Shown: one piece after another, positions 6,299 to 34,151 of the stretch | Layout of the letters: each line of letters starts with the position of its first letter | How positions within the stretch are numbered: position 1 is the first letter of the stretch | Source: Sphingomonas sp. | GTDB lineage: Bacteria > Pseudomonadota > Alphaproteobacteria > Sphingomonadales > Sphingomonadaceae | Length of the DNA stretch: 37,684 bases | Assembly: GCF_025353885.1 (NCBI RefSeq) | Contig: NZ_JANXNX010000032.1 | Coordinates: 1-37,684 of the forward strand | Reading direction: 5' to 3' | Program-made: the position numbers and the translations under genes | Notes under the pieces: model-generated | What the model was told of the DNA's origin: nothing | Seen by the model: the letters and a program-made list of their open reading frames with translations, nothing else | Database searches by the model: none

Positions 6299-6325
6299 AT
6301 AACGGCGCGGATGGTCGCAGCTTTA
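6299..6325 (-). promoter_or_regulatory. Sigma-28 (FliA) promoter for small ORF-fliD-fliS
   Basis: On the minus strand TAAA (6325-6322) is followed by exactly 15 bp and then GCCGTTAT (6306-6299), close to the classical sigma-28 consensus TAAA-N15-GCCGATAA. The first three bases of the -35 element are the TAA stop codon of flhB. The predicted start of transcription, about 6291, leaves a short leader before ATG 6265. The same layout occurs before flagellin, flgM and motA. Confidence 0.78.
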
Positions 6326-7447
6326 GGACGCGCGCCCGTCCGCGCCGTAGTGCAGGCCGTCGGGCATCTCGATTTCGGGCTGAGCACGGCGGGCGATCTC
6401 GGCGTTGAGGCCAAGGACGAACGCCAGCACAGTGGCGACCGCACGATACAGTTTTTCGTCAATCACCTGTCCAGATCGGCTGGTAAAATAAATGGCGCGG
6501 GCGAGCGCTGGATAGGTCAGCACCGGCACGTTCTCCAGCGCCGCCATTTCGCGCAGCGCGGCGGCGGCTTCGGCACGGGCGCGGGCCAGCACGACCGGCG
6601 CAACGTCGGTGCCGGGACGATAACGAAGTGCGACCGCAAACGACGTCGGGTTGACGAGGATGACAGTCGCCTCCTTGACGGCCTTGCGTGCCGACTGGTC
6701 GAGCAAGGCGGCGCGCTTGGCCTGAATTTGCTGGCGGACTTCAGGAGCGTGTTCGGATTCGCGGTGTTCGTCGCGCACCTGCTGCTTGGTCATCCGCAAC
6801 TTTGCATTGTGAAGCGCGATCTGGATCGGGGCGTCGAGCGCAGCAATTAGGATCAGTGCGATCGTGACGGCAAAAACGGTGCGCAGCAAGTGTGATGCCC
6901 CGACGGTCGCGACCGCCAGCGGATCGGCACCCGATGACATGACGAAGCCGGGCAACGCTCCCTTGATGGCCCACAAGAACGCGCCACCGAGAAAAATCAG
7001 CTTGGCGAGCGATTTGACGAATTCGATGCCGCCACGCGCGCTGAAGATGCGCTTCAAGCCGGTGGCGGGCGAGATGTTGGCTAATTTGGGTGCGACCGCA
7101 CCCCAGTTGATGCCAAGACCCCCGCCGATAAGGCGACTGCAAATGGCAGCGAAGCAGACCGACGCAAAGAGCACCGCCATCGGCACCGCAACGGCGGCGA
7201 TCATCGGCCAAACTGCAGTGGCGGGATCGAAATCGGTGCGCGTATCGCGGAGCATCAGCCCGGCGCGCATCTGGCTGGCGGCCCCGCCCCAGAGTACTGG
7301 TCCCATCAGCGCAAGCCAGCCTGCCCCGGCCAGCACTACCGCCGCGCCGGACAGCTCGCGAATATCGGGGAGCTGGCCCCTTTTTCGCGCAGCCTGCCGG
7401 TGTTTGGGCGTGGCGGCTTCGGTGCGCTCGCCCCCTTCGCCGCTCAT
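6323..7447 (-). CDS. flhB: Flagellar export switch protein FlhB (NPTS variant)
   Basis: Inner-membrane component of the flagellar type III export gate whose cytoplasmic domain switches substrate class after autocleavage. The 374-residue protein has four membrane segments in the first ~210 residues, then the basic linker and the cytoplasmic domain. At residues 266-269 the normally invariant NPTH cleavage motif reads NPTS (codon TCG at 6643-6641), followed by the usual FAVALRY. The start is ATG 7447, overlapping the fliR stop as ATGA. It is the last gene of the fliE-flhB run; its TAA stop is shared with the sigma-28 -35 element of the next unit. The length is slightly below the usual 350-390 midpoint, otherwise ordinary. 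Confidence 0.93.
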   Translation of the reverse strand: MSGEGGERTEAATPKHRQAARKRGQLPDIRELSGAAVVLAGAGWLALMGPVLWGGAASQMRAGLMLRDTRTDFDPATAVWPMIAAVAVPMAVLFASVCFAAICSRLIGGGLGINWGAVAPKLANISPATGLKRIFSARGGIEFVKSLAKLIFLGGAFLWAIKGALPGFVMSSGADPLAVATVGASHLLRTVFAVTIALILIAALDAPIQIALHNAKLRMTKQQVRDEHRESEHAPEVRQQIQAKRAALLDQSARKAVKEATVILVNPTSFAVALRYRPGTDVAPVVLARARAEAAAALREMAALENVPVLTYPALARAIYFTSRSGQVIDEKLYRAVATVLAFVLGLNAEIARRAQPEIEMPDGLHYGADGRAS

Positions 7448-8175
7448 TTGGTCGCCAGCTCGAACGACAGCCTGATCTGTTCGCCGATGGCGCTGCCCAT
7501 CGCGGGAAAGGCGATGACCAGCAGCATCGCCCCCGCTAACTGCGTAAAGGGCAGGCCGATCGCGAACAGATTCAGCGCGGGGGCGGCCTTTGCGATCAGG
7601 GCCAGCACGACCTGCACGATCACCAGCGCGAACGTCACCGGCAACGCGATGCTGACCGCACCCGAAAACAGCGCGGTGCCGAACATCGCCATCGCGTTGC
7701 CGGGGAACCATGCGGAGCCGATGGGAATGTCATGGAAACTGGCGACGACCATCGCGACCAGCGTCAGATGTCCCTGGCTGGCGAGGAAGATGGCGGTGGT
7801 GGCAAAGCTCATGAAATTGCCCAGCGTCGGCGCGGGTCCTGCCAGGCCGTTGGGCGAGGTGGCAAACCCCAGCCCCATCGTATTGCCGATGACTTCGCCC
7901 GCCATCATCGCGGCGGCAAAGGCCATTTGCATCGCAAAACCCATCGTCAGGCCGATCAGCAATTCGGGCAGCACGATGAACGGCGCATCCCGCGCGGCGG
8001 TCAGCGCAGCCTGGGGGTTGCCCGCTGAAAAGCCCGCCCACCCGATCGCAATGGCAATCGCGATCCGCAGCGGAACGGGCACATGGCTGTTCCCGAACAG
8101 CGGCGATGCGAACAATGCAGCGCCCGGGCGGATCGAAGCGATAGCGATGCCCGCTGCGGTTTCTGTGAGGGTCAT
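7444..8175 (-). CDS. fliR: Flagellar export gate protein FliR
   Basis: Integral membrane subunit of the FliP5-FliQ4-FliR1 export channel. It has 243 residues with about six hydrophobic segments, close to the usual 250-265. The conserved central region is present (MAGEVIGNTMGLGFATSPN, which corresponds to the family's GExIGxQMGxxxA region). The start ATG 8175 shares one base with the fliQ stop (TGATG) and the end overlaps flhB by ATGA, so the three are translationally coupled. Longer frames upstream lie inside fliQ and are not used. Confidence 0.93.
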   Translation of the reverse strand: MTLTETAAGIAIASIRPGAALFASPLFGNSHVPVPLRIAIAIAIGWAGFSAGNPQAALTAARDAPFIVLPELLIGLTMGFAMQMAFAAAMMAGEVIGNTMGLGFATSPNGLAGPAPTLGNFMSFATTAIFLASQGHLTLVAMVVASFHDIPIGSAWFPGNAMAMFGTALFSGAVSIALPVTFALVIVQVVLALIAKAAPALNLFAIGLPFTQLAGAMLLVIAFPAMGSAIGEQIRLSFELATK

Positions 8176-8453
8176 CAGTTCAGCATGTCGGGAATGCGTG
8201 CGAACATCTCTCGGGCGAAATCGGCGATGACCCCCAGGATCGCCGCGCCGAACACCGCCAGCACGACCGCGATGACGATCAGCTTGGGCACGAACGACAA
8301 GGTCGCCTCGTTGATCGAGGTGACTGCCTGGAACAACCCCACGACCAGCCCGACGACCAGCACCGACACCAGCAACGGCGCGGACGCCAGCGCCGCCGTC
8401 CACAGCCCCTGTTGCGCGAACCCCAGCAATATGTCCTGTTCGCTGCCCATCAT
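8175..8453 (-). CDS. fliQ: Flagellar export gate protein FliQ
   Basis: Small two-helix membrane subunit of the export channel, 92 residues against about 89 usually. Two long hydrophobic hairpins (LVSVLVVGLVVGLFQAVTSI and VPKLIVIAVVLAVFGAAILG) flank the family's conserved QAxTSINEATLSFVPK turn. Two adjacent ATGs (8453 and 8450) could start translation; both overlap the fliP stop. It lies in the conserved fliP-fliQ-fliR order. Confidence 0.93.
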   Translation of the reverse strand: MMGSEQDILLGFAQQGLWTAALASAPLLVSVLVVGLVVGLFQAVTSINEATLSFVPKLIVIAVVLAVFGAAILGVIADFAREMFARIPDMLN

Positions 8454-9142
8454 CCCGATCCAAACGACGATGCCAGCGACCCCATCGTCAACGCCCATCC
8501 GTCGATGGCGACGAACAGCAGCAGCTTAAACGGCATCGACACGACCGACGGCGACAGCATCATCATGCCGAGCGCCATCAATGCGCTGGCCACGACCAGG
8601 TCGATGACGAGGAAGGGCAGGAAGATCAGGAACCCGATCTGGAATGCGGTCTTCAACTCGCTTGTGACAAAGGCGGGGACGAGGATCGCGAACGGCGTCG
8701 TGGCGATGCTCGCGCCGGGCTTTTCATTGCCCATGCGATAGAACAGCGACAGATCGGCGCTGCGCGTCTGGCGCGCCATAAACCCGTGAAGTGCAACGCC
8801 GCCGCGCTCGATCGCGGTCTCCATCGGCAGCGCCTGCGTGCGATAGGGCTGCCACGCGGTGCGGTCGATCTCCGCAATCACGGGGCGCATGACGAACAGC
8901 GTCAGGAATAGCGCCATGCCGACCAGCACCTGGTTGGGCGGGGTCTGTTGCAGCCCGAGGGCCTGTCGCAGAATCGACAACACGATCAGGATGCGCGTGA
9001 AGCCGGTCATCATTAGCAACAGCGTCGGCAGGACGGTCAGCCCGGTCATCAGCACCAGAATCTGCAGCGGCAGCGACAATGGTTCGGCGCCCGTGTTGAG
9101 CGCACCCAGGTCAAGCGCCGCCATCAAGGTCAAGGCGATCAT
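8450..9142 (-). CDS. fliP: Flagellar export gate protein FliP
   Basis: Main subunit of the export channel in the inner membrane, 230 residues (usual about 245). An N-terminal hydrophobic stretch is followed by the conserved FTRILIVLSILRQALG and QTPPNQVLVGMALFLT segments, a periplasmic loop with LFYRMG, and two C-terminal membrane helices ending in the SLPFK-like SMPFKLLLFV motif. The start at ATG 9142 overlaps the fliO stop by ATGA. The longer frame upstream would run through fliO and is rejected. Confidence 0.95.
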   Translation of the reverse strand: MIALTLMAALDLGALNTGAEPLSLPLQILVLMTGLTVLPTLLLMMTGFTRILIVLSILRQALGLQQTPPNQVLVGMALFLTLFVMRPVIAEIDRTAWQPYRTQALPMETAIERGGVALHGFMARQTRSADLSLFYRMGNEKPGASIATTPFAILVPAFVTSELKTAFQIGFLIFLPFLVIDLVVASALMALGMMMLSPSVVSMPFKLLLFVAIDGWALTMGSLASSFGSG

Positions 9143-9339
9143 GAGGGGAGGTCGCTGGCGATCAGGGCGATGCCCTCCCGGCTGACGGACAGCAGCAGCG
9201 TGCGACCGGCGAATTGGACGACGGCCAGCTTGGTCGTCGCGCCGAACGACTGGACCTCGACCAGGCGTGCGATGCGTCCGCGCCGTTGGTCCCGCACACG
9301 ATTGACGAGCGACAACAGGCGTGCAGTCAGCGCGTTCAT
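9139..9339 (-). CDS. fliO: Very short FliO-like protein without membrane segment
   Basis: A 66-residue protein in the fliO position between fliN and fliP. It matches only the cytoplasmic C-terminal domain of FliO: the pattern IARLVEVQSFGATTKLAVVQFAGRTLLLSV resembles the beta-rich end of longer FliO proteins. FliO normally begins with a transmembrane helix and assists assembly of the FliP ring; here no hydrophobic helix of sufficient length is present. ATGA overlaps link it to both neighbours. The name is inferred from gene order and C-terminal pattern, not from an overall match. Confidence 0.6.
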   Translation of the reverse strand: MNALTARLLSLVNRVRDQRRGRIARLVEVQSFGATTKLAVVQFAGRTLLLSVSREGIALIASDLPS

Positions 9340-9599
9340 TTGACCGATGCCACGATTTCACAGATGCGGACGCCGTAGCGCCCGTCGACGGTGACAATCT
9401 CTCCGCGCGCGATCAGGGTGCCGTTGGCAAGGATGTCCAGCGGGTCGTCGGTCTGGCGGTCGAGTGCGACGACGGCATCCTGTTTGAGTGCGATCAGCGC
9501 AGACAGGGTCATTGACGTCGAACCGACCTCCACCGACAGGCGCATGGGGATGCGGGACAGTAGTTCGTAATTGTCGGTTGGGGGCGGGACTTCAGTCAT
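9336..9599 (-). CDS. fliN: Flagellar motor switch/C-ring protein FliN
   Basis: C-ring protein of 87 residues made of one SpoA domain. It forms the base of the rotor and docks the export ATPase complex. Characteristic features are RIPMRLSVEVGSTSMTLSALIAL, the hydrophobic core LDRQTDDPLDILANGTLIARGEIV and the terminal VDGRYGVRICEIV. The N-terminal tail is short, as in minimal FliN. It starts at ATG 9599 inside the end of fliM and its stop overlaps fliO. Confidence 0.92.
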   Translation of the reverse strand: MTEVPPPTDNYELLSRIPMRLSVEVGSTSMTLSALIALKQDAVVALDRQTDDPLDILANGTLIARGEIVTVDGRYGVRICEIVASVK

Positions 9600-10377
9600 C
9601 GGTCATGGTCTCCATCAAGTCGATTCGGACGGCGGTGCGGCCATCGGTGTCGGTCAGCGTTCCGGCCGCGATCAGATGTGCCCCGGCAAATAACGGGACA
9701 GAGGCGGGCCGGGGGATCGACAGCACGTCGCCGACCGCCAGTCGTAATATCGTGGCGGCGGGGAATTCGGGTTGCGCCAGGATCGCCCGCACCGTCAGCC
9801 TGGCCGCGAGCGCACTGCTGCGAAGCCGGGCGGCCCAGTCGGCCACACGCGGGACGGGCACCCCGCTGATCCGCGCGAGCCCCTCGATCGCAAAGGCGAT
9901 ATGGACGTAGCCGACGGTGCCGCAAGTAAGCGCGATCGTAGCGACCATATCGTCGGCGCGCGCGAATTGTGCCGGGTCGGCAGGGGCAACGGCGGGGGTG
10001 CCGGTGGGCCAGTTGCAGGCGATGGCCTGCGCGATGCCGTCTGCGATCTGGCGCGCGCGCGACGCGGTGGCACGACACTGGCGGGGGGCGTGTGGCTTCG
10101 CGCCTGCCCCGCCGAACTGGCGTTCCAGCAACGACCCGGCCAACGCGTCGTCGACCGCGATGTTCATGGCGCAGGCGGTGCCGAGGCTGAAACCGAAGCT
10201 GGCGGCGGGCTGCTGCCACAGGGCAAAGACCTGCGTGTCCGACGACGCCTGGACCTTCTCTCCCAGCAGGAGCGAGACCGGTGCCACAATCCGCGCGGCC
10301 ACATGCGACAGGGCATTCTGGACACCGTCACCCGGCGCCCGGGCGAGCAGCAGATTGGGGCGGGTCAGCGCGGTCAC
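9592..10377 (-). CDS. fliM: Shortened FliM-like C-ring protein
   Basis: Rotor C-ring protein between fliL and fliN. It has 261 residues, about 70 fewer than usual. The C-terminal SpoA domain is clear (VRAILAQPEFPAATILRLAVGDVLSIPRP...), and the middle part is compatible with the FliM CheC-like domain. The N-terminus starts directly with TALTRPNLLLARAPGDG, without the LSQxEIDALL-type segment that binds phospho-CheY in chemotactic motors. The start is GTG at 10377, overlapping the fliL stop as GTGA. Identification is by order and SpoA domain; the rest is divergent. Confidence 0.82.
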   Translation of the reverse strand: MTALTRPNLLLARAPGDGVQNALSHVAARIVAPVSLLLGEKVQASSDTQVFALWQQPAASFGFSLGTACAMNIAVDDALAGSLLERQFGGAGAKPHAPRQCRATASRARQIADGIAQAIACNWPTGTPAVAPADPAQFARADDMVATIALTCGTVGYVHIAFAIEGLARISGVPVPRVADWAARLRSSALAARLTVRAILAQPEFPAATILRLAVGDVLSIPRPASVPLFAGAHLIAAGTLTDTDGRTAVRIDLMETMTDD

Positions 10378-10835
10378 TGGATCACGAAACTGGTGAAATA
10401 CACGCTGTCGATACCCGTGTGCCCGGTCTTCGACTTAAGGACCTGATCCATCACGGCGCGCAGCTTTTTCTGGAGCTGTTGCTTGCCCGCCGTCGTCGCC
10501 AGGTTGGACGCATCCTGATCGGCGACGATCATCAGCACCACCGACCGCAGCGCCGCCTCGTTGACCTTCACCGCCTCTGCGGAATGCTCGTCACGGGTCG
10601 CGACCGACAGCGAAAGCTGCGCAAAACTGCCGGTATCGCGCAAGTTAGAGGTAAAGGGCTGCTGGAACGCGAAATAGGCGACTTCTGCGGGTGCCGGATC
10701 GCCATGCGGCTGCAACATTCCGGCCTGCGCCACATAGACGCCCCCGGCGGCCCCCGCCCCCGCCATCAGCAACGCGCCGATGCCATAGGCCAGCAGCCCC
10801 ACCAGCTTGCCGCGTTTCTTCTTGGTTCCACTCAT
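10374..10835 (-). CDS. fliL: Flagellar basal body-associated protein FliL
   Basis: Single-pass inner-membrane protein of 153 residues that surrounds the stator and supports torque. It has a basic cytoplasmic N-terminus (GTKKKRGK), one membrane helix (about residues 12-38), then a periplasmic domain with FTSNLRDTGSFAQLSLSVATRDEHSAEAV, typical of FliL. ATG 10835 is preferred to a GTG at 10853 because AAGGAA lies 6-7 bases in front of it. It follows fliK and overlaps fliM. Confidence 0.92.
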   Translation of the reverse strand: MSGTKKKRGKLVGLLAYGIGALLMAGAGAAGGVYVAQAGMLQPHGDPAPAEVAYFAFQQPFTSNLRDTGSFAQLSLSVATRDEHSAEAVKVNEAALRSVVLMIVADQDASNLATTAGKQQLQKKLRAVMDQVLKSKTGHTGIDSVYFTSFVIQ

Positions 10836-10849
10836 CGATTGTTCCTTAT

Positions 10850-11878
10850 TCACGCGTAGCGACCGGCGTCGGCGGCAGCGTCGTCTTCGCTGTCGTTAAC
10901 CTGTCCGATTTCGATCTGGAGGCGCGGCCTCGCCTCGTCGCGGCCGCGCGATCCGGACGGGTCCAGCAGGACCATCGCCGCCGAGATCGGCGCCCCCAGC
11001 GCGGCGGCTCCGGCCAGCACGAGCGGACGCGCGGCGTCCACTGCGGCCAGTGCGCGGGTCTCCGACACGCCTATCTCCAGGCGGTCGGCGGTGCGTTCGA
11101 TGGTAATCCTGCCATAGCCCTCAGGTTCGACACGGAAGCGGACGTCGCCCGACTTCGCGGCCAGCGCGGACACGTCGCGAATGACGGTATCGAGCCACCG
11201 CGTTTCGGCCGGGTCCTGACGCGCGAGGACCGCGAAAATCTGTTCGGCGGGATGCGTCCGCGCTGGCTGGACAAGCGGCGCAGAAAGCGCTGCCGCAAGC
11301 GCTACCGGGATTTCGGGAGGCCGGACGGGCACCACCTCCACGAGGGCTTCGGACGGGGCCAGGGCGACCGTCGTCGTGTCGCCGGGCTTCAGTGGCGGCG
11401 AAGTATCGCGCATTGTCGGCACAGCCTCACCAAGCTTGGCTTTTGCAAAACTCGCTGGCGGCAAGGGCGATGGCTGGGGGTTCACTGGCATCAGTTCCAA
11501 AGGTGCCGGTTGCGTCACTTGAAGGGCTGGCGGCGTCTGGAATGGCAGGATCGGAAGGTCGACCGGCTCGTCCGTCACCAGTGGCTCGTCCCGGTTTTCA
11601 GTGTCGAGCAGCAGGGTTTGGCCCTGGCCCGGCTTGGCAACAGGAAACGACGCGCCAACGGTATCGGCAACTGCAACATCGAATTTTACCGCAATCGCTG
11701 GAGCCGGGTGATTTGGCGTCGGAACCGGAGACGGGTCGCCGATCTCGGCAGCCGTGGTCGCGACCAGCGTTTCAGCATCGAACACGGTGGCGAAATCGAC
11801 AGTTTCCGTCGAAATTGGCGGCGGCGACACCAACCCCCCCGGCAATGCCAAGGTGAGTGCGGGGGCTGCAATCACCAT
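10850..11878 (-). CDS. fliK: Hook-length control protein FliK
   Basis: Secreted ruler protein that sets hook length and triggers the FlhB switch. It has 342 residues with the expected build: a long low-complexity Pro/Ala/Thr-rich N-terminal two-thirds and a compact C-terminal domain (about 225-320: WLDTVIRDVSALAAKSGDVRFRVEPEGYGRITIERTADRLEIGV) like the FliK hook domain. The start at ATG 11878 overlaps the end of fliJ by 7 bp. The gene order fliJ-fliK-fliL supports the call. Confidence 0.85.
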   Translation of the reverse strand: MVIAAPALTLALPGGLVSPPPISTETVDFATVFDAETLVATTAAEIGDPSPVPTPNHPAPAIAVKFDVAVADTVGASFPVAKPGQGQTLLLDTENRDEPLVTDEPVDLPILPFQTPPALQVTQPAPLELMPVNPQPSPLPPASFAKAKLGEAVPTMRDTSPPLKPGDTTTVALAPSEALVEVVPVRPPEIPVALAAALSAPLVQPARTHPAEQIFAVLARQDPAETRWLDTVIRDVSALAAKSGDVRFRVEPEGYGRITIERTADRLEIGVSETRALAAVDAARPLVLAGAAALGAPISAAMVLLDPSGSRGRDEARPRLQIEIGQVNDSEDDAAADAGRYA

Positions 11879-17014: not shown

Positions 17015-17050
17015 CGGTGATTGCGTTCCCCAGGAGACCTGCAATCACCG
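17015..17050. promoter_or_regulatory. 10-bp inverted repeat overlapping the fliE promoter
   Basis: CGGTGATTGC (17015-17024) and GCAATCACCG (17041-17050) are perfect reverse complements separated by 16 bp. The upstream arm contains the -12 element and spacer of the fliE sigma-54 promoter. The other arm lies just downstream of the expected transcription start. It could bind a repressor or the activator, or form a hairpin at the 5' end of the message. Confidence 0.55.
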
Positions 17051-17055
17051 TGCCA
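17041..17055 (-). promoter_or_regulatory. Sigma-54 promoter of the fliE operon
   Basis: On the minus strand TGGCAC (17055-17050), a 5-bp spacer, then TTGC (17044-17041), an exact match to the core sigma-54 -24/-12 consensus. The predicted start near 17030 leaves about 48 bases of leader before ATG 16982. It should drive the whole fliE-flhB run. Confidence 0.88.
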
Positions 17056-17129: not shown

Positions 17130-18530
17130 TCAGCCGGCAAGACCCAGCAGGTAGAGCGCGACACCCGCCAACGACGACGCGCCAAGGGTCGCCAGCATGC
17201 CGATCTTCAGCCGGAACACAGCGATGATCGCCAGCACGGTGAGCGCGAGCGCCCAAGGGTCGACGCTGTTCCAAACCGGCATGTCAAAATGCAACGGTCC
17301 CCCCACGAACCGTCGCACGTCGTGAAAGATCGTGTGGATGGCAAACCACGCCGCTAGGTTCAGGATAACCCCAACCACCGCCGCCGTAATGGCAGACAAG
17401 GCCCCGGTCACCGCTGCATTGCCACGCATCCGCTCGACGAAGGGCGCACCCAGAGATATCCACAGGAAGCACGGCAAAAACGTCACCCATGTCGCCAGTA
17501 ACCCACCGAGCGTGCCTGCAAGCAAAGGCGGCAGCATACCCGGGTTGCGAAACGCGCCCATGAAACCGACAAACTGTAGCACCATGATTAGCGGCCCCGG
17601 CGTGGTTTCCGCCATCCCCAAACCGTCCAGCATCTCGCGCGCCGTCAGCCAGTGGAAATGCTCCACCGCCTGCTGCGCGACATAGGCGAGCACGGCATAG
17701 GCACCGCCGAAGGTCACGACCGCCATCGTCGAAAAGAAGGTGGCGATCTGGGTAAAGACGTCGTGCCCGCCCAGCGTCAGCAACAGGACCGCGACCGGAG
17801 CCAGCCACAGTGCGAGCCATACGCTTGCCTGGCACAACGTCGCCTTGGTCGTTGGCGTTGCGTGTGCGGGCAGTTCGTCACCCAGCAGCGTGTTAACATC
17901 AGCCACGATCTTGTCGTTGGTTGCGCCATGGCCGCCCCCGACCATGAACGCAGACACGCCCCGCCGCCCCGCCAGGTAACCCACAAGCCCTGCCCCCAGA
18001 ATAATGATCGGGAATGGCACCCCGCAAAAAAAGATCAGCACAAACGCGACCGCGGCCAGCACGCGCATCGGTACATTCTTGAGCGCGCGCGACCCGATCC
18101 GGATCACTGCTTGCAAAACGACGGCCAGCACCGCGCACTTGAGGCCAAAGAACAGCGCCGACACGATCCCCACCGCACCATAAAGCGCATAGATCCAGCT
18201 CAGCACCATGATCCCCACCGCACCCGGCAGGATAAATAGCCCGCCAGCGACAATACCCCCGCGCGTCCGGTGCATGAGCCATCCGATGTAGGTCGCCAAC
18301 TGCTGCGCCTCGGGGCCTGGCAACACCATGCAGAAATTCAGCGCGTGGAGGAAGCGGTGCTCGCCGATCCAGCGTTTTTCCTCGACAAGAATCCGGTGCA
18401 TTACCGCGATCTGGCCAGCAGGGCCCCCAAACGACAGCAGTGAAATCCGTAACCACACCCAGAATGCCTCGCCCAGCGAGACGGCGGCAGGGCGTTGCAC
18501 AAGCGGTTCGGAACGTTCTTCGACAGACAT
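17130..18530 (-). CDS. chrA: ChrA-type chromate transporter
   Basis: Polytopic inner-membrane protein of 466 residues in the chromate ion transporter family, which exports chromate in characterised members. The two homologous halves each begin with the family signature: ISLLSFGGPAGQIAVMH near residue 30 and VVTFGGAYAVLAYVAQQAV near residue 265, followed by EMLDGLGMAETTPGPLIM. ATG 18530 is preceded by TGGAGGATGC. The gene has no evident flagellar role and separates the fliE operon from the flagellin gene. Actual substrate cannot be told from sequence; some family members are of unknown substrate. Confidence 0.92.
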   Translation of the reverse strand: MSVEERSEPLVQRPAAVSLGEAFWVWLRISLLSFGGPAGQIAVMHRILVEEKRWIGEHRFLHALNFCMVLPGPEAQQLATYIGWLMHRTRGGIVAGGLFILPGAVGIMVLSWIYALYGAVGIVSALFFGLKCAVLAVVLQAVIRIGSRALKNVPMRVLAAVAFVLIFFCGVPFPIIILGAGLVGYLAGRRGVSAFMVGGGHGATNDKIVADVNTLLGDELPAHATPTTKATLCQASVWLALWLAPVAVLLLTLGGHDVFTQIATFFSTMAVVTFGGAYAVLAYVAQQAVEHFHWLTAREMLDGLGMAETTPGPLIMVLQFVGFMGAFRNPGMLPPLLAGTLGGLLATWVTFLPCFLWISLGAPFVERMRGNAAVTGALSAITAAVVGVILNLAAWFAIHTIFHDVRRFVGGPLHFDMPVWNSVDPWALALTVLAIIAVFRLKIGMLATLGASSLAGVALYLLGLAG

Positions 18531-18644: not shown

Positions 18645-18671
18645 TAAACTTGTCCGCCGACCCGCCGTTAC
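18645..18671 (+). promoter_or_regulatory. Sigma-28 (FliA) promoter of the flagellin gene
   Basis: TAAA (18645-18648), exactly 15 bp, then GCCGTTAC (18664-18671), six of eight bases of the -10 consensus. It lies about 55 bp before the flagellin ATG and explains filament synthesis as a late, FliA-dependent step. Confidence 0.8.
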
Positions 18672-18725: not shown

Positions 18726-19541
18726 ATGACCTATATCGGAACCAACGTCGCAGCGATCCGCTCGCAGACCGGCATCAACAAGGCCGCCATGGGCCTCAGC
18801 ACGGCGATGGAGCGACTTTCGAGCGGCAAGCGCATCAACGCCGCCAAGGACGACGCCGCTGGCCTCGCCATCGCCAGCCGCATGACATCGCAGGTCCGCG
18901 GCCTGACCGCGGCGATGCGCAACGCCAATGACGGAATTTCGCTGGCCCAGACGGCAGAAGGCGCGATGGGCGAGATTTCCAACATGCTGCAACGCGTCCG
19001 TGAACTTGCTGTCCAGTCGGCCAACGGCACGAATTCGGCAGGCGATCGCACGAACATCCAGACCGAAGTGACCGCACTGCTCGGCCAGATTGACGATGTC
19101 GCAAACAAGACGACGTTCAACAACATCAAACTGACCGACGGATCGGCGACCGCGCTGACGATCCAAACCGGCATGAACTCGGGTGATACGGTAACGCTGG
19201 CCATTGCCTCGATGACCACAACGGGCCTAAGCGTCGCAGCCGTAGATTTGTCGACTGCGGCAGGGGCAGCGACTGCACTCGGCTTGCTCGATACCGCCAT
19301 CGACACGGTCAATACCGGACGTGCCGCCATCGGTGCCGCCCAGAACCGCTTCGAAGCAACGATCAGCAACCTTACATCGACCGTCACGAACCTGACCGAA
19401 GCGCGCAGCCGGATCGAGGACGCCGATTTCTCGGCGGAAACGACCCAGCTCGCCAAGGCCCAGATTCTCAGCCAGGCGGCAACTGCCATGCTGGCACAGG
19501 CCAATCAGTCGCAGCAGAGCGTTCTGAAGTTGCTTCAGTAA
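18726..19541 (+). CDS. fliC: Flagellin (compact)
   Basis: Filament subunit of 271 residues. The N-terminal D0/D1 helices ([41 protein letters not shown]) and C-terminal helices ([22 protein letters not shown] through QSVLKLLQ) are well conserved. Only a short Thr/Ala-rich segment (about 140-190) replaces the variable outer D2/D3 domains, as in other small flagellins. A strong AGGAAGGA ribosome site precedes ATG 18726. A single flagellin gene is present, with its own sigma-28 promoter and terminator. Confidence 0.97.
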
Positions 19542-19667: not shown

Positions 19668-20393
19668 TCAATCTCGATCGAGCACGAAACGCAGCTTGTT
19701 CAGGGCCGCCTTCTTGATCTGGCAGACCCGCGCCGCGCCCACGCCAAGCGTCTCGCCGATCTCATCGAGATTCAGTTCCTCGACGAAATACAGCTGCAAC
19801 ACCATCGCTTCGCGTTCGGGCAGTCCACCGATACCCCTGGCAATCGCAGCCTGTAATTGCGTCCGCTCGATAGCATCATCGGCGCGTTCTTCGACATCGG
19901 CAAACCACATCGAATGATCGGAATACAGGTCGTCGATCGATTCATGCCGGACCGACTGCGCCGCGTCCGCCATTGCATGATAGGTCGGCAAATCAACCCC
20001 CATTGCGTCGGCAAGCTCGGTATCTCCGGGCGGACGGCCATTGGCGCGTTCGAACTGGTCACGCGCGCCGGCGATGGCACGCCGCTTTGCCATGGCGGAG
20101 CGACATTGCGTGGCCTGTTTGCGCAGTCCGTCAATCATGCTGCCGCGGATCCTGAGAGAGGCGTAGGTCGCAAAGGCATGGCCGCGATCCTGATAACCTC
20201 GCGCCGCCTCGATCAGCGCAATCATGCCCGACTGGATCAGGTCCTCGACGTCGATCGCCGTAGAGACGCGGCCATGGACATGCCACGCGATCTTGCGAAC
20301 CAGGCCCATGTGTTCGCGGATCAGTTGTTCGGGATCAACGCGGCTTTCGGTGCCATATGTCAATGCGGCGACGGGCGTATCGACTAGCGCCAT
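19668..20393 (-). CDS. fliA: Flagellar sigma factor FliA (sigma-28)
   Basis: RNA polymerase sigma factor for late flagellar genes, 241 residues (usual 235-255). Region 2 reads HMGLVRKIAWHV...DVEDLIQSGMIALIEAARGYQ and GHAFATYASLRIRGSMIDGLR, the signature of sigma-28. Region 4 is LPEREAMVLQLYFVEELNLDEIGETLGVGAARVCQIKKAALNKL. It is the last gene of the transglycosylase-flhA-fliA operon and overlaps flhA by 10 bp, so it is expressed as a sigma-54-dependent middle gene. Its targets in this window are visible as four sigma-28 promoters. Confidence 0.96.
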   Translation of the reverse strand: MALVDTPVAALTYGTESRVDPEQLIREHMGLVRKIAWHVHGRVSTAIDVEDLIQSGMIALIEAARGYQDRGHAFATYASLRIRGSMIDGLRKQATQCRSAMAKRRAIAGARDQFERANGRPPGDTELADAMGVDLPTYHAMADAAQSVRHESIDDLYSDHSMWFADVEERADDAIERTQLQAAIARGIGGLPEREAMVLQLYFVEELNLDEIGETLGVGAARVCQIKKAALNKLRFVLDRD

Positions 20394-23244: not shown

Positions 23245-23259
23245 GCAAAGCCCGTGCCA
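23245..23259 (-). promoter_or_regulatory. Sigma-54 promoter of the transglycosylase-flhA-fliA operon
   Basis: On the minus strand TGGCAC (23259-23254), 5 bp, TTGC (23248-23245), an exact core match. The expected start near 23233 is about 20 bases before ATG 23214. It sits between the flgM end (23278) and the transglycosylase. Confidence 0.88.
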
Positions 23260-23277: not shown

Positions 23278-23541
23278 TCAGTCGGCGATCGGGCCCAGAT
23301 CGCTCGCGATCATGCGCGCGGCAATGGCGTCGGGATCGGCCCCGTAGCTGCCATCGGCAATCGCAGTCCGCAGTTGCGCCACGCGCGATGCGTCGATGGG
23401 GGGACCTTGTGATGCCATCACTGCTATTGTCGAAAGATCACCCGATCTGACTGTCACGACACGCGGCGGGGCCGACGACGCGATCGGTCGCGCAACCCGC
23501 TCGACCGGGCCAGTCCCGCTCACCCTAACGCCATCGACCAT
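23278..23541 (-). CDS. flgM: Anti-sigma-28 factor FlgM
   Basis: Small protein of 87 residues that binds FliA until it is exported through the finished hook. The disordered Pro/Ser/Val-rich N-terminus and the C-terminal sigma-binding part (IDASRVAQLRTAIADGSYGADPDAIAARMIASDL) fit FlgM. ATG 23541 has GGAGG 8 bases upstream; GTG 23544 is an alternative. It follows flgA, the common order, and has its own sigma-28 promoter at 23572-23598, so FliA drives its own inhibitor. Confidence 0.9.
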   Translation of the reverse strand: MVDGVRVSGTGPVERVARPIASSAPPRVVTVRSGDLSTIAVMASQGPPIDASRVAQLRTAIADGSYGADPDAIAARMIASDLGPIAD

Positions 23542-23571
23542 CACATCGCCCTCCGCTCGTACACCCTCCGG

Positions 23572-23598
23572 ATAACGGCTTATGACGGGAAAGCTTAA
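23572..23598 (-). promoter_or_regulatory. Sigma-28 (FliA) promoter of flgM
   Basis: On the minus strand TTAA (23598-23595), exactly 15 bp, then GCCGTTAT (23579-23572). The -35 differs by one base from TAAA, while the -10 equals that of the fliD unit. The element begins immediately after the flgA stop codon. Confidence 0.72.
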
Positions 23599-24072
23599 TC
23601 AATAAATCCGGACCGTGCCGGGATCGGCGACCAGCCCCACGATCACGCCCGCCGCCCCCGGCCCCGTCCTGACGCGGACACGCGCGCCCAGCGGACCCTC
23701 GCTTTCGGCAATCCCCGATACCGACGCGCTGAACCCGTCGGCACCGGTCACGACCGATACCGGGTCGCCTTTGCGGATCAACGGCAGGACTGTTGTGGGC
23801 GAAATCGTCGTGACCATCGGCACCCTGATGCGCCAACCGATCGTGGCGCACCCGACCGTTATCGATCCGGCAGCTGGGGCACCCACGGTGAGCGTTTCCG
23901 GGCACGCCGCCAGCTTCATCCGCCGATCCACCGGTCGGGCCACCCCGACCCCGCCCGCCGCCGCAACAACAATGGCATCGACAGCGTCAAGATCCTGCCA
24001 CGTCGCCGCCGACGCTTCGGTCGCCATCAGCGCCACTCCCCAAACAAGCTGTCGTAAAATTGACGGCATCAT
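23599..24072 (-). CDS. flgA: P-ring assembly chaperone FlgA
   Basis: Periplasmic chaperone for FlgI polymerisation, about 157 residues, with a Sec-type signal peptide (hydrophobic LVWGVALMATEASA, cleavage likely after ASA). The SAF-like C-terminal domain is visible (RIRVPMVTTISPTTVLPLIRKGDPVSVV, ending VVGLVADPGTVRIY). Adjacent starts at 24075 (GTG), 24072 and 24069 (ATG) follow AGGAG closely; an ATG is favoured. It is divergent from flgB and upstream of flgM. Confidence 0.9.
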   Translation of the reverse strand: MMPSILRQLVWGVALMATEASAATWQDLDAVDAIVVAAAGGVGVARPVDRRMKLAACPETLTVGAPAAGSITVGCATIGWRIRVPMVTTISPTTVLPLIRKGDPVSVVTGADGFSASVSGIAESEGPLGARVRVRTGPGAAGVIVGLVADPGTVRIY

Positions 24073-24103
24073 CACTCTCCTCTCGGTTCAATCCCGTTAC
24101 CCA

Positions 24104-24118
24104 GCATCATCCGTGCCA
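24104..24118 (-). promoter_or_regulatory. Near-consensus sigma-54 promoter of flgA
   Basis: On the minus strand TGGCAC (24118-24113), 5 bp, ATGC (24107-24104); one base differs from TTGC at the -12 element. It points away from the flgB promoter, 33 bp away, giving back-to-back sigma-54 promoters. Confidence 0.62.
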
Positions 24119-24151
24119 CTAATCCCCGCGTTTCCGCCGATCCTGCCGAAC

Positions 24152-24166
24152 TGGCACGCACCTTGC
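24152..24166 (+). promoter_or_regulatory. Sigma-54 promoter of the flgB-flgL operon
   Basis: TGGCAC (24152-24157), 5 bp, TTGC (24163-24166), an exact core match, 46 bp before the flgB ATG. It should drive the eleven-gene flgB-to-flgL run, whose internal junctions nearly all overlap. Confidence 0.9.
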
Positions 24167-24178
24167 GGAATGACCGGC

Positions 24179-24193
24179 GTGCCAACCCGGCAC
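24179..24193. promoter_or_regulatory. Inverted repeat just downstream of the flgB promoter
   Basis: GTGCC (24179-24183) and GGCAC (24189-24193) with a 5-bp spacer lie around the expected transcription start of flgB. It is a candidate activator site: some flagellar sigma-54 activators bind downstream of the start. Confidence 0.35.
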
Positions 24194-24211
24194 TTCGGTC
24201 AAAGGCTCGCA

Positions 24212-25607: not shown

Positions 25608-25621
25608 ACCGGAGAACCACC

Positions 25622-26449: not shown

Positions 26450-26450
26450 G

Positions 26451-27194: not shown

Positions 27195-27204
27195 GAAAAC
27201 CATC

Positions 27205-28618: not shown

Positions 28619-29703
28619 TGCGCTGGCTGTTGGCCTTGCTGGCATTCGGTGCGGTGCCTGCGCAAGCCGACAGGATCAAGGACCTGGGCGCGTTTCAGGG
28701 ACTGCGGGCGAACCAGTTGACCGGCTATGGCGTGGTGGTCGGGCTGGCGGGCACCGGCGATGACAGCCTCGACTATGCGACGCAAGGGGTGAAGGGTGTG
28801 GTCAGCCGGTTCGGCCTGACCCTGCCACCGGGCGTGAACCCCAGCCTGAAGAACGCGGCGGCGGTGCTGGTCACGGCCGAACTGCCGCCCTTTGCCAAGC
28901 CGGGCCAGCGGCTCGACATCACCGTTTCGGCGCTGGGCAAGGCCAAGTCGCTGAGGGGTGGGACGCTGATCCTGGTGCCGCTGCGGGGGGCCGACAACAA
29001 TATCTATGCGATGGCGCAAGGCAATCTGGCGGTCGGTGGACTGGGGGTCGATGCCGCCGACGGATCGAAGCTGACGGTCAACGTCCCGACGGCGGGGCGG
29101 ATCCCGGGCGGCGCGTTGGTAGAGCATCTCGTTGATACCGGATTCGCCAGCGCTGCCGCGCTGCAGTTCAACCTGAACGACGCCGACCTGACCACCGCGC
29201 AACGGGTCGCAGACGTTATAAATCAAAGACTTAGTGGTAATGTGGCGCAGGCCATCGATGCAGTTTCGATCACCATCGCCACGCCACCGGGTGCTCAACT
29301 GCGCGCCGGCCTGATGGCGCGGATCGAAAATTTCGAGGTCAGGCCCGCGGACGCCCCGGCCCGCGTGATCGTCAATGCGCGGACGGGCACGGTGGTCATC
29401 AACGGCGCGGTGCGGATTTCCCCCGCAGCGGTCACGCATGGCAAGCTGACGGTGCGGGTGGATGAGAACCCGCAGATCGTTCAGCCCGCCCCTTTTTCCA
29501 ACGGACAGACCGCGACCCAGCAACAAAGCGACATCGCCGTGGAGGAGACCCGCAACCCGATGTTCCGCTTCGCACCCGGCGCGTCGCTCAGCGATATCGT
29601 CGCGGCGGTGAACCGGATCGGTGCCTCGCCCGCCGACCTAGTCGCGATCCTGGAGGCCCTGAAACAGGCAGGAGCCATGAAGGCAGAGTTGATCATCCTA
29701 TGA
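28618..29703 (+). CDS. flgI: P-ring protein FlgI
   Basis: Periplasmic ring protein of 361 residues with a cleavable signal peptide (MRWLLALLAFGAVPAQA). Strong family segments: DLGAFQGLRANQLTGYGVVVGLAGTGD, LKNAAAVLVTAELPPFAKPGQRLDI and VNARTGTVVINGAVRISPAAVTHG. ATG 28618 shares a base with the flgH stop. Its FlgA chaperone is encoded in this window. Confidence 0.97.
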   Translation: MRWLLALLAFGAVPAQADRIKDLGAFQGLRANQLTGYGVVVGLAGTGDDSLDYATQGVKGVVSRFGLTLPPGVNPSLKNAAAVLVTAELPPFAKPGQRLDITVSALGKAKSLRGGTLILVPLRGADNNIYAMAQGNLAVGGLGVDAADGSKLTVNVPTAGRIPGGALVEHLVDTGFASAAALQFNLNDADLTTAQRVADVINQRLSGNVAQAIDAVSITIATPPGAQLRAGLMARIENFEVRPADAPARVIVNARTGTVVINGAVRISPAAVTHGKLTVRVDENPQIVQPAPFSNGQTATQQQSDIAVEETRNPMFRFAPGASLSDIVAAVNRIGASPADLVAILEALKQAGAMKAELIIL

Positions 29704-29930
29704 TCCAGCCCGTCTCAAACGCACCAATCACCCCGCTAACGAAGGCCGCAAAGGCTTTGGAGGCGGTTTTCCTGCGCCAGATGATCGCCGCGATGCGCAC
29801 TTCGACACTATCCGGCGACGATTCCACCCAGTTTCGCGACATGTCCGATGCCAATCTGGCCGATAAAATGGCTGGCGGGTTCGGGATCGCCGCAATGGTC
29901 GAACACCAGATGAAGGAACATCAGCCATGA
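29700..29930 (+). CDS. flgJ: Rod-assembly protein FlgJ, N-terminal domain only
   Basis: Rod cap/chaperone of 76 residues corresponding to the N-terminal rod-binding half of enteric FlgJ (KALEAVFLRQMIAAMRTSTL...DMSDANLADKMAGGFGIAAMVEHQM). The muramidase half is absent, as in many alphaproteobacteria; the SLT enzyme at 22483-23214 probably supplies that activity. ATGA overlaps link it to flgI and flgK. Confidence 0.92.
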   Translation: MIQPVSNAPITPLTKAAKALEAVFLRQMIAAMRTSTLSGDDSTQFRDMSDANLADKMAGGFGIAAMVEHQMKEHQP

Positions 29931-31258
29931 GCAGCGACCTGTTGAGCATCGGCGCGTCGGGCCTGCGGGCCTATAAAACTGCGCTGAACACCGTCGGCGA
30001 CAATATCGCCAACGCGCAAACCGTCGGCTATGCCCGCCGCAGCGCCCGCCTGACCGAAGTGTCGACCGGGGCGGGGCAAAGCATATTGTACCGCAATGTC
30101 GACCGTTTCGACGGGGTCGAGGTCCAGGCGATCGACCGGGCCACCGACCGTTTCCGCGTGGGCGAAGCGCGGCTGGCGGCGACCGCGGACGGCAAGGCAA
30201 AGGCGATATCGGGCTGGATGGCCATAACCGAAACCGCGCTGGCCGACGGCGATGATGGCGTCGGGGCACGGTTAGGCGCGGTTTTCGCAGGCGGCGCAGC
30301 TCTGGCCGCCGACCCCGTGGCACGCCAGCCCAGGACGGCATTCCTGAGTGCCATCGATGCCGCCGCGCAGGCGATCAGGACCAGTGCAGGCGACCTGCAG
30401 CGCGCTACTGAGGGCGTCGGCGATGCGGCGCAGTCTTCGGTGGCGGGCCTGAACGGCACCCTGTCGACGCTGGCCGACATCAATCTGGCCATCCGCCACG
30501 CCGGACCCGGAACCGCCACTTATGTCGAACTGTCCGACCAGCGCGACGCCCTGATCGACGCGGTTGCGGGACAATTGAACATCGATATCGTCGTTGCCAC
30601 CGACGGCACGACGACACTGTCGAGCAATGGCCAGATGTTGCTGAACGGGGCCACCGCGACATCCATCACGCTGACGGTGGCGAGCGACGGACGATTAAGC
30701 CTGGCCGCAGGCGCGCCGCTGACACCAACGGGCGGGACGCTGTCAGGCCTCGCGACAACGGCCGCTGTTATCGCCGACCGGCGCGCGGCGCTGGACGTGC
30801 TGGCATCCGATTTCGCAAGTCACATCAACCAGTGGCAGGGCGCGGGTCGCACGCCCGGCGGCACTGCCGGAACCGCGCTGCTGTCGGCGGTGGGTGGTGC
30901 CGCCGGACTGGTTGCGCTGGCGACCGATGCCGATGCCGTGGCGGCTGGATCGGCGGGCGGCGTGCCGAACGGCAATGCGCTGGACCTGGCCACGGTGCGA
31001 ACGACGAGCGACGTCGAGGGGCAGTGGAATACGATGGTCGGCCTGCAGGCCCAGGCCACCGCCGCCGCCACCAGCCAGCGCGCGACGACGACCGCGCGGC
31101 TGACCACCGCGAACGCCGCGCGCGACGGGGTGGAGGGCGTCGATCTGGATCACGAAGCAGTCGACCTGCTGCGTTTCCAGCAAGCCTATGAAGGCTCGGC
31201 CAAAATCCTCCAGGTCGCGCGCGACATCCTCGACACCATTATGGGATTGTTCAAATGA
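29927..31258 (+). CDS. flgK: Hook-filament junction protein FlgK
   Basis: First hook-associated protein, 443 residues, somewhat short (usual 450-650). N-terminal SIGASGLRAYKTALNTVGDNIANAQTVGYARR and C-terminal LDHEAVDLLRFQQAYEGSAKILQVARDILDTIMGLF are typical. ATGA overlaps flgJ and flgL. It is expressed from the flgB sigma-54 promoter; no separate sigma-28 promoter is seen before it. Confidence 0.95.
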   Translation: MSSDLLSIGASGLRAYKTALNTVGDNIANAQTVGYARRSARLTEVSTGAGQSILYRNVDRFDGVEVQAIDRATDRFRVGEARLAATADGKAKAISGWMAITETALADGDDGVGARLGAVFAGGAALAADPVARQPRTAFLSAIDAAAQAIRTSAGDLQRATEGVGDAAQSSVAGLNGTLSTLADINLAIRHAGPGTATYVELSDQRDALIDAVAGQLNIDIVVATDGTTTLSSNGQMLLNGATATSITLTVASDGRLSLAAGAPLTPTGGTLSGLATTAAVIADRRAALDVLASDFASHINQWQGAGRTPGGTAGTALLSAVGGAAGLVALATDADAVAAGSAGGVPNGNALDLATVRTTSDVEGQWNTMVGLQAQATAAATSQRATTTARLTTANAARDGVEGVDLDHEAVDLLRFQQAYEGSAKILQVARDILDTIMGLFK

Positions 31259-32094
31259 TCAACGGCACACGGTTTCGCATGGATACCGATATCGCCCGCC
31301 AGACGAACCTGGCGGCGCGGATCGCGCGCGGGCAGTCCGACATTGCGACGGGAAAGCGATTGCAGGTGGCATCGGACGATCCGGCAGCCAGCGCCCGCAT
31401 CGCGGTGCTGCGCCAACAGGAGATCGACACCAGGTCGTGGACCGCCAACGCCGATGGCGCGGCCTCTGTCGCGGCGCGCGCAGACAGCGCACTCGGCGCG
31501 ATCGGGCAGTTGCTGGACCGGGCCCGCGAACTGGCGACGAGCGCGGCCAGCGACACGCTGAACGATGCCGACCGCGCCGGAATCGCCAGCGAACTGGTGG
31601 GTATTGCGACAGAAATCGACGGGTTAGGTGGCGAGACAGACGCCGGGGGCGCGCGGGTCTTTCCGGTCGGCGCGGCGCTGGACGTGCCGGTCGGACGCGG
31701 GCTGACATTGGCGGCAACAACGACCTATGCCAACGCCTTCACGGTTGCCACAACAGGTGGGCCGGTGGACATGGCGGTCGTACTGAGAAACGCGGCGGCG
31801 ATGCTGAATGCGGGACCCGCCGCGCGCGCGACCGCACTGGCCAACGTGACCGCGGCAAGCGATCATATGGCCGCCGTGCGCGGCGAACAGGGCACGCGCG
31901 CCGCCCGCATCGACAGTGCCCGCGACCGCCTGGTCACCGTGCAGACGAGCGGCACCGAGGAGCGACAGGCGCTGGAGGCAACCGATGTATCTGGCACCGT
32001 CGCGCGGATACAGGGCGACCAGCTCGCGCTGGACGCGGCACAGGCGCTGTTTGCCAAGGTGAACCGGCGGACGCTGTTCGATTTGCTGGGGTGA
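31255..32094 (+). CDS. flgL: Hook-filament junction protein FlgL
   Basis: Second junction protein, flagellin-like, 279 residues. N-terminal RMDTDIARQTNLAARIARGQSDIATGKRLQVASDDPAASARI and C-terminal helices support FlgL rather than a second flagellin, as does its place after flgK. It is the last gene of the flgB operon. Confidence 0.93.
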   Translation: MINGTRFRMDTDIARQTNLAARIARGQSDIATGKRLQVASDDPAASARIAVLRQQEIDTRSWTANADGAASVAARADSALGAIGQLLDRARELATSAASDTLNDADRAGIASELVGIATEIDGLGGETDAGGARVFPVGAALDVPVGRGLTLAATTTYANAFTVATTGGPVDMAVVLRNAAAMLNAGPAARATALANVTAASDHMAAVRGEQGTRAARIDSARDRLVTVQTSGTEERQALEATDVSGTVARIQGDQLALDAAQALFAKVNRRTLFDLLG

Positions 32095-32120
32095 GGGCTT
32101 GGCTGACAATCGGCTATCAC

Positions 32121-32207
32121 TATACCCCCGGCGCAGGCCGGGGGGTATACAGCTGTCGGGTCGGCGCACCTCTTTCTGACGTCCGTACAGGCCCCGGCCT
32201 GCGCCGG
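32121..32207. repeat. GC-rich inverted repeat after flgL (REP-like candidate or terminator)
   Basis: TATACCCCCGGC (32121-32132) and GCCGGGGGGTATA (32137-32149) form a hairpin with a GCAG loop and one bulged base. In addition CCGGCGCAGGCCGGGG (32128-32143) is repeated in inverted orientation at 32192-32207 (CCCCGGCCTGCGCCGG), 16 of 16 bases. The arrangement resembles intergenic REP/BIME-type elements and could also end flgL transcription. The rest of 32095-32290 shows nothing else. Confidence 0.55.
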
Positions 32208-32290
32208 AGTGACGGTTCTGCCCTCGCCAATTCAGGGGAGAGGGAAGTGGGCCATTTCCTCCAAAGGTTTTTTGGAAGAAGATGGGTCAG

Positions 32291-33196
32291 CTATCCCACC
32301 GTTGCGCGCACGCCATAGTCCATCCGTCGCAGGTCAGTGAGCAACTCCGGGCCGGTCGGCTCCCAGCTGAGCTGCGCGCGGGTCCAGGTGCTGGAGGCTG
32401 ACATATCGAGACCGGCAAACATGGCGAACCATCCGAAATGCGTTGCTGCTTCCTCCGGTGACATCGACACCGCCGCCACGCCCAGGCCCGTCGCGATGAT
32501 TTCGGCAATGGCGCGGGCCGAGACACCTTCCTCGGCGACTGCATGGTAGCGCGCATCCCTGCTGCCCCGGTCCAGCGCCCGCACATAAAGCCTTGCCACG
32601 TCGAGTACGTGCGCGGCGGGCCAGCGATTGGCACCGTCGCCCACATAGGCGGCAACCCCCTGTTCACGCGTGATTTCCAGATAAGGCGAGATCAGCCCCT
32701 GCTTGAACTCGTCGTGGACCTGGGGGAGCCTTATGACGCGAACATCGAGGCCCGCATCGCGCAGTGCATTGCCGGCCAGTTCGGACGCGATGCGCGGATT
32801 GGGATGAGCGGTATTAAAGACGTCCTCCGTCGCCAGGCCCCCGTCCCCGGGGTCGCCCATTCCTGTGCCAGAGGTGATCAGCAATGGCCGGTCCGAACCC
32901 TGCAGCGCTTCGCCCAGCGCACCGATCGCGCGCCGGTCCTTTTCGCAATTGGCCAAAAAGTTTGCGAAATCATGATCGAAAGCGGTGTGGATCACGGCAT
33001 CGGTCTTTGCGGCCCCGGCGCGCAGGCTGTCCAGGTCTTCGAGCGTTCCGTGATGCGCCTCGGCACCGGCGGCAGCCAGTGCGCGCGCACCGTCGTCCGA
33101 ACGCGTCAATCCCAGCACCCGATGCCCCGCAGCCAGCAATTCGGGAACGATACGCGAACCGATAAAGCCAGTCGCACCCGTCAGAAAAACACGCAT
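32291..33196 (-). CDS. Atypical SDR-family NAD(P)-binding oxidoreductase/epimerase-like protein
   Basis: Rossmann-fold protein of 301 residues. The nucleotide-binding motif is at the N-terminus (VFLTGATGFIGSRIVPELLAAGH, the GxxGxxG type of extended/atypical SDRs), followed by DAVIHTAF and ITSGTGMG. Substrate unknown. ATG 33196 has GGAG 6 bases upstream; the frame starting at 33223 lacks such a signal. It is divergent from an XRE regulator gene with an inverted repeat between them, so the regulator probably controls it. Not flagellar. Confidence 0.88.
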   Translation of the reverse strand: MRVFLTGATGFIGSRIVPELLAAGHRVLGLTRSDDGARALAAAGAEAHHGTLEDLDSLRAGAAKTDAVIHTAFDHDFANFLANCEKDRRAIGALGEALQGSDRPLLITSGTGMGDPGDGGLATEDVFNTAHPNPRIASELAGNALRDAGLDVRVIRLPQVHDEFKQGLISPYLEITREQGVAAYVGDGANRWPAAHVLDVARLYVRALDRGSRDARYHAVAEEGVSARAIAEIIATGLGVAAVSMSPEEAATHFGWFAMFAGLDMSASSTWTRAQLSWEPTGPELLTDLRRMDYGVRATVG

Positions 33197-33242
33197 TGCA
33201 ATCTCCGTTATGATCGAAGACATATTTCGCGCTTATGCTGGT

Positions 33243-33285
33243 CCTGTTAAAGTAGTGACTTTATCCCGGTATAACGATTAACAGG
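33243..33285. promoter_or_regulatory. Candidate operator between SDR and XRE genes
   Basis: CCTGTTAA (33243-33250) and TTAACAGG (33278-33285) are perfect reverse complements, 27 bp apart. The right arm overlaps the ribosome site of the regulator gene starting at 33291. A TATAAC (33271-33276 area) may be a -10 for it. This fits autoregulation by the regulator, an inference. Confidence 0.5.
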
Positions 33286-33290
33286 TCGGC

Positions 33291-34127
33291 ATGGCTTCTG
33301 CACCCGATAACGCCCTTGGCATATTTCTTCGTGATCGTCGCTCGCGTCTCGATGCAGCGGCCTTCGGTTTCGGTAGCGGTCGTCGGCGGACGCCCGGATT
33401 GCGCCGCGAGGAGGTGGCGCAGCGGTCCAACATCTCTCCGACCTGGTACACCTGGCTGGAACAGGGCAGAGGCGGCGCGCCTTCGGCAGACGTGCTCAAT
33501 CGCCTTGCCGCCGGTCTGATGCTGACGGAACCCGAGCGCGAGCATCTTTTCATTCTTGGGCTGGGACGGCCACCCGAACCGCACTACAAGATTTCGGATG
33601 AAGTAACGCCTCGGTTGCAACGTGTCCTCGACGCCCTGCCGACCAGCCCCGCGATCATCAAGACGGCAACCTGGGACGTGGTGGCGTGGAACGCGGCGGC
33701 GGCGATGGTGCTGACCGATTACGGCAAGCTCCCGCGCGCGCAACGCAACATCCTGCGCCTGATCTTCACGGATTCGGGCGTCAAGGCCGGGCAGGAGGAC
33801 TGGCTCGCCGTCGCCCGTTATGTCGTTGGTGCATTTCGGGCCGACACCGTCCGGGCAGGGGCAAGGGCGGAAATAACGGAACTCGTTGAAGACCTGTCGA
33901 GGAGCAGTCCTGAATTCGCGGCGCTGTGGCGGGACAACGACGTTGCCGGACACGCCCATGGGCTGAAGCGCATTCATCACCCGGAACACGGGTTGCTGGA
34001 GCTGGAATTCTCGGTCTTTGCGGTCGACGGTCGCCCGGACCTGGGGATGCTGGTGTACAATTCCGCAACGGCGGAAACCGCCCGGCGCATCCAGTCGGTC
34101 ATGGCGGCCCGGTCGCCAGCGGCCTAA
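33291..34127 (+). CDS. XRE-family regulator with MmyB-like ligand-binding domain
   Basis: Transcription regulator of 278 residues. The N-terminal helix-turn-helix is about residues 36-75 (GLRREEVAQRSNISPTWYTWLEQGRGGAPS, the sub-family pattern), followed by a PAS-like C-terminal domain beginning at about 108 (LPTSPAIIKTATWDVVAWNAAA) as in MmyB-type proteins. ATG 33291 follows ACAGG. Neighbour and likely target: the divergent SDR gene. Its stop codon TAA is part of the motA sigma-28 -35 element. Confidence 0.9.
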   Translation: MASAPDNALGIFLRDRRSRLDAAAFGFGSGRRRTPGLRREEVAQRSNISPTWYTWLEQGRGGAPSADVLNRLAAGLMLTEPEREHLFILGLGRPPEPHYKISDEVTPRLQRVLDALPTSPAIIKTATWDVVAWNAAAAMVLTDYGKLPRAQRNILRLIFTDSGVKAGQEDWLAVARYVVGAFRADTVRAGARAEITELVEDLSRSSPEFAALWRDNDVAGHAHGLKRIHHPEHGLLELEFSVFAVDGRPDLGMLVYNSATAETARRIQSVMAARSPAA

Positions 34128-34151
34128 ACCCCGCCCCGCCCCGGTCGTTAA
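34125..34151 (+). promoter_or_regulatory. Sigma-28 (FliA) promoter of motAB
   Basis: TAAA (34125-34128), exactly 15 bp, then GTCGTTAA (34144-34151), six of eight -10 bases. TAA of the -35 is the stop codon of the XRE gene. Predicted transcription starts near 34158, about 28 bases before the motA ATG. Confidence 0.75.

Follow-up and report, generated by a model that had tools for sequence, protein, structure and literature searches.

The window, i.e. the whole stretch of 37,684 bases analysed here, contains a compact flagellar cluster with a GC content of 64%. The cluster comprises fliS, fliD, flhB, fliR, fliP, a gene for a FliN-type switch protein, fliL, fliI, fliG, fliF, fliE, fliC, fliA, flhA, flgM, a flgA-like ORF whose score with the FlgA model is under the cut-off of that model, rod and hook genes, flgH, flgI, flgK and motAB. 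A chromate transporter gene (17130-18530) is located between fliE and fliC. The fliC gene (18726-19541, plus strand) encodes a flagellin of 271 aa with Flagellin_N and Flagellin_C domains. The filament cap gene fliD (5274-6065, minus strand; FliD_N and FliD_C) encodes a short form of 263 aa and is followed by fliS for the flagellin chaperone (4903-5298, minus strand; FliS). A small ORF of 67 aa (6062-6265, minus strand) overlaps the start of fliD, and no Pfam match was found for its last 60 residues. The anti-sigma-28 factor is encoded by flgM (23278-23544, minus strand; FlgM), and the stator by motA (34186-35046, plus strand; 286 aa, MotA_N and MotA_ExbB) and motB (35043-35933, plus strand; MotB_plug and OmpA). 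The sigma-28 factor itself is encoded by fliA (19668-20393, minus strand). This protein of 241 aa has sigma-70 regions 2-4, scores above the cut-off of TIGR02479, and its best PDB relatives are FliA proteins.

A scan of the entire window with the pattern TWAA-N15-GYCGTTA gave exactly four matches, versus a mean of 0.00 and a maximum of 0 in 100 dinucleotide shuffles. These are the four T(A/T)AA-15 bp-G(C/T)CGTTA sites with a common T at the fifth base of the -10 that the first-pass annotation had described. All four have this T and a spacer of exactly 15 bp, and all are correctly oriented 28-55 bp upstream of a gene. The FliA-type site of fliC (18645-18670, plus strand) has its -35 TAAA at 18645-18648 and its -10 GCCGTTA at 18664-18670, and the ATG at 18726 lies 55 bp past the end of the -10. 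The site of the small ORF-fliD-fliS unit (6300-6325, minus strand) has TAAA at 6325-6322 and GCCGTTA at 6306-6300; the first gene behind it is the 67-aa ORF (ATG at 6265, 34 bp past the -10 end) and not fliD itself. For flgM (23573-23598, minus strand) the -35 is TTAA (23598-23595) and the -10 GCCGTTA (23579-23573), with the start codon 28 bp (GTG at 23544) or 31 bp (ATG at 23541) past the -10 end. For motA-motB (34125-34150, plus strand) the -35 is TAAA (34125-34128) and the -10 GTCGTTA (34144-34150), with the ATG at 34186, 35 bp past the -10 end. A TAAA-like -35 and a GCCG-type -10, 15 bp apart, are thus found shortly before late flagellar genes (fliC, small ORF/fliD, flgM and motA) in an organism that encodes FliA. 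Several of the sites abut or overlap the preceding gene. The TAA in the -35 of the fliD unit (6323-6325) doubles as the stop codon of flhB, and that of motA (34125-34127) as the stop codon of an upstream regulator gene, while the flgM site begins right behind the stop (23599-23601) of the flgA-like ORF. In 10 of the 34 T-bearing flgM sites collected as described below (window included), the TAA within the -35 ends an open frame of at least 80 codons, irrespective of the identity of the gene.

The closest named relatives of this FliA are from sphingomonads, the best (79% identity) being from a Sphingomonadales metagenome-assembled genome, and on this basis we place the source of the window in the sphingomonad family. 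We located flagellin and flgM genes by tblastn in 80 named FliA loci, whose titles nearly all refer to sphingomonads, and scanned the upstream regions with TWAA-N15-GYCG, leaving the fifth base free. The flagellin set consisted of 46 upstream regions from 42 loci, after exclusion of the window and of hits starting at residue 20 or later, and the flgM set of 61 upstream regions, after removal of the window and one contig-edge case. Between -160 and -40, 41 of the 46 flagellin regions held a site, as did 33 of the 61 regions for flgM; shuffled controls gave an average of 0.35 for each set. The neutral site was missing in 5 of the 46 flagellin upstream regions and in 28 of the 61 for flgM, 18 of these 28 being titled Sphingobium. 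The fifth base was T in 41 of 42 flagellin sites and 33 of 33 flgM sites (74/75 in total). The fliC gene of Zymomonas mobilis also carries the site, and at least one exact match was found in 57 of 99 family genomes, counted irrespective of whether they are flagellate. For motA, the 80 FliA loci gave weak partial matches but no full-length gene. In four relatives, we selected by hand, not randomly, 20 of 26 exact matches; 17 of these 20 precede genes scoring over the Pfam cut-off for fliD, MotA or MotA/ExbB, flgM, flgA or flagellin, and the remaining three precede a sub-cut-off MotB-like gene (one) and ORFs without a Pfam match (two). In two of these relatives (loci L288 and L303) an exact site is also present before a MotA/ExbB-type gene lacking MotA_N, besides the one of MotA itself. 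The sites are therefore conserved in the family at orthologous fliC and flgM genes and were found at fliD, motA-type and flgM genes in the four relatives, but not at motA in seven family genomes that have other types of FliA (see below). As the first-pass annotation proposed, they have the look of genuine FliA promoters, serving genes for the filament, its cap, the anti-sigma factor and the stator. Judged from the DNA, it is very probable that all four are true sigma-28 promoters.

The first-pass annotation had also considered the motif to be lineage-specific, since the enteric -10 has A at its fifth base. This part did not hold. Within the class, a strict FliA model matched 9 of 240 genomes at E 1e-40, that of the window included, while FliA was found in 127 of 200 genomes of a sample of the phylum. 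From this sample we took 62 flagellin upstream regions of 48 genomes outside the class, which we take to be Gammaproteobacteria, and scored them with a threshold of at least 4.5 in a scheme that does not reward the fifth base. A site was found in 28 of the 62 (0.6 sites in mononucleotide shuffles). At the fifth position, 16 sites have A, 11 have T and one has C. Both A and T occur in each of two genomes, G528 and G477. The enteric consensus, quoted as TAAAGTTT-N11-GCCGATAA in PMC2859248, is like the sites of the window in architecture, spacing and GCCG, but has A where these have T. For Shewanella, a FliA consensus sequence TAAAG-N14-GCCGTTAA is given, predicted before one gene and with reference to Song et al. 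2008, in PMC3765264; it has the same -35 core, the same 15-bp spacing from TAAA to GCCG and the same fifth-base T as the window. Shewanella is a gammaproteobacterium, and the exact sites of our assembly (five, see below) differ from its sequence in that GCCG is replaced by GTCG in two of them and the -35 of one is TTAA. With T in 11 of 28 outside-class sites and in Shewanella, this base is commonly either A or T, and the T is not an invention of the lineage. It is a widespread variant that did not arise anew in the sphingomonad family but became fixed there, and the finding is thus real but ordinary. In searches of open-licence PMC papers, we recognised none that defines a sphingomonad FliA consensus.

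Could the sphingomonad FliA nevertheless have changed so that it demands a T at the fifth base, which would be a lineage-specific specificity? The difference between 74 of 75 sphingomonad sites and 11 of 28 outside the class is consistent with this (Fisher test of T versus A on fliC sites, 9e-8, kinship ignored). A possible structural cause is the loop before region 2.3, which is one residue shorter in the FliA of the window than in E. coli FliA. The constant part of the -10 is GYCG, and residues D81, R84 and R91 of E. coli FliA are said to read GCCG, a finding reportedly due to Koo et al. in 2009. These residues align to D88, R91 and R98 of the window FliA. In favour of the four sites being read by FliA, 19 FliA proteins of the family show no variation at R91 and R98 and hardly any at D88. 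By analogy with sigma-70, we assume that the fifth base lies near -11. We rejected the shorter loop as cause of the T, as two genomes (G389 and G421) combine GCCGTTA with a loop of the usual length. A link between loop and T within the family was rejected as well, as two members (G023 and G026) have the T without the shortening. Moreover, the genomes holding both letters and the identical sequence in Shewanella speak against a changed FliA, and a fixed letter is not the same as a changed requirement. We therefore consider a T-demanding FliA unlikely, and retain that the T form of a shared A-or-T position was fixed in sphingomonads.

A chance origin of the matches, from base composition and without promoter function, appears very improbable. 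A random density of the motif over the genome had been named beforehand as what would speak against the promoters, and such a density was not observed: the assembly (2.76 Mb in 117 contigs, 98.2% complete) contains five exact matches, four of which are in the window, i.e. in 1.4% of the sequence. As a control, the reversed pattern was found to match 9 times across the assembly. Taken as a conservative rate, this control leads to an expectation of 0.12 for the window and a probability of 8.6e-6 for four or more matches. Four correctly placed sites against an expectation of at most 0.12, and the conservation of the fliC and flgM sites at similar distance, argue against chance. It is also because of the 9 matches of the reversed control that lone matches elsewhere carry little weight. 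This applies to the fifth exact match (contig C71, 1290-1315), which is located upstream of a gene for a PilZ-domain protein, at first sight a tempting candidate for a late gene of the YcgR kind. The site has no counterpart at a 75%-identical orthologue (in G002), and at a 70% orthologue (in G006) there is only an off-consensus site. As a FliA promoter this match is unproven and probably due to chance, the site not being kept in the closest orthologues. The exact site was found at neither of the two chemoreceptor genes. A relaxed pattern, TWAA-N14-16-GYCGTT, was not enriched (30 matches versus 90 for its reversed control) and is not useful as a genome-wide motif. Equally improbable is that another sigma factor uses the sites with FliA uninvolved, since the TAAA-like -35, the 15-bp spacing and GCCG are the sigma-28 form quoted in PMC2859248, and fliA and flgM lie within the same cluster.

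The window also contains sigma-54 sites. With at most one mismatch we found 10, versus 3.8 expected, and only one of 100 shuffles reached 10. Perfect sites are located ahead of the flhA and fliA unit (23245-23259, minus strand), at the fliE unit (17041-17055, minus strand) and ahead of the rod/hook unit (24152-24166, plus strand). Their positions imply that fliE and the first rod gene start later than the longest ORFs. A sigma-54 activator gene (3866-4915, plus strand; Sigma54_activat) is a candidate early regulator. With three perfect sites and an encoded activator, the most likely hierarchy is sigma-54 first and FliA second. The Pseudomonas/Vibrio-type hierarchy, with sigma-54 early and FliA late as described in PMC6180460 and PMC6424431, is similar in having sigma-54 sites at early units and FliA sites at late genes. 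However, a match to a receiver domain was not found in the activator of the window, unlike in that type, and the hierarchy of the window is a predicted one. Sigma-54 and its activator would first switch on the flhA-fliA unit together with those for the basal body and the rod. FlgM would hold FliA until the hook is complete and would then be exported, and the freed FliA would transcribe fliC, fliD-fliS, flgM and motAB. The fifth base of sigma-28 promoters would be a position open to A or T, at which sphingomonads have kept the T form. We infer, with high confidence in the reading as a whole, that the four sites are class III promoters read by the FliA polymerase, that the order is sigma-54 and then FliA, and that the T form has become fixed in sphingomonads. 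Counting against this reading are the flgM and flagellin upstream regions devoid of the neutral site, the motA orthologues lacking a strict site (see below), the relaxed pattern with its fewer matches than the control, and the two chemoreceptor genes.

Eight family genomes have a divergent FliA, and their -10 tails differ from that of the window (loci L306, L308-L312, L314, L315 and L318-L321). The counts for these genomes are low, and their genes were identified through BLAST matches to proteins of the window and its relatives. In seven of the eight, a site is near fliC, with C or G as fifth base in all seven and one of them at 14-bp spacing; the form at fliC is GCCG(C/G)TCT. The second flagellin gene of G012 has no site. 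At flgM, fliD and MotA/ExbB-type genes we found seven sites, all with T at the fifth and six with C at the seventh position (GCCGTTCT). Neutral matches with other letters before matches to the sigma-54 activator, flgI, flhA and fliI were set aside. The pattern TWAA-N15-GYCGSTCT marks flagellin in six of the eight genomes and is otherwise scattered, so it does not constitute a regulon-wide motif there. FliA and its promoters may, rather doubtfully, have drifted together within this one family, divergent FliA proteins going mostly with GCCGTTCT at flgM, fliD and a MotA/ExbB-type gene and with GCCG(C/G)TCT at fliC, and those of the window type with GCCGTTA. This co-drift is made less likely by the true motA orthologues: the strict site was absent from the 200 bp upstream of all seven that were found in family members whose FliA is of another type (five of the eight genomes above, together with G011 and G120, whose fliC -10 sequences are GTCGTTCC and GCCGTTCC), and looser scanning added a single poor match in each of two. 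Should the co-drift be true, a recent change of specificity would have affected the -10 beyond GYCG, and two natural sigma factors would be at hand to dissect it.

For annotation, the motif is usable for late flagellar genes in sphingomonads, Zymomonas included. The enteric GCCGATAA alone as query would have missed nearly all sphingomonad sites found here. The results suggest that the fifth base is better written as A or T (W) in searches for sigma-28 promoters in proteobacteria. Finally, the FliD of the window is about half as long as the FliD proteins of four relatives with the same kind of promoter (522-537 aa or more, some of these ORFs being possibly clipped by the ends of their stretches), and its flagellin is likewise short. 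The filament cap may lack outer domains.
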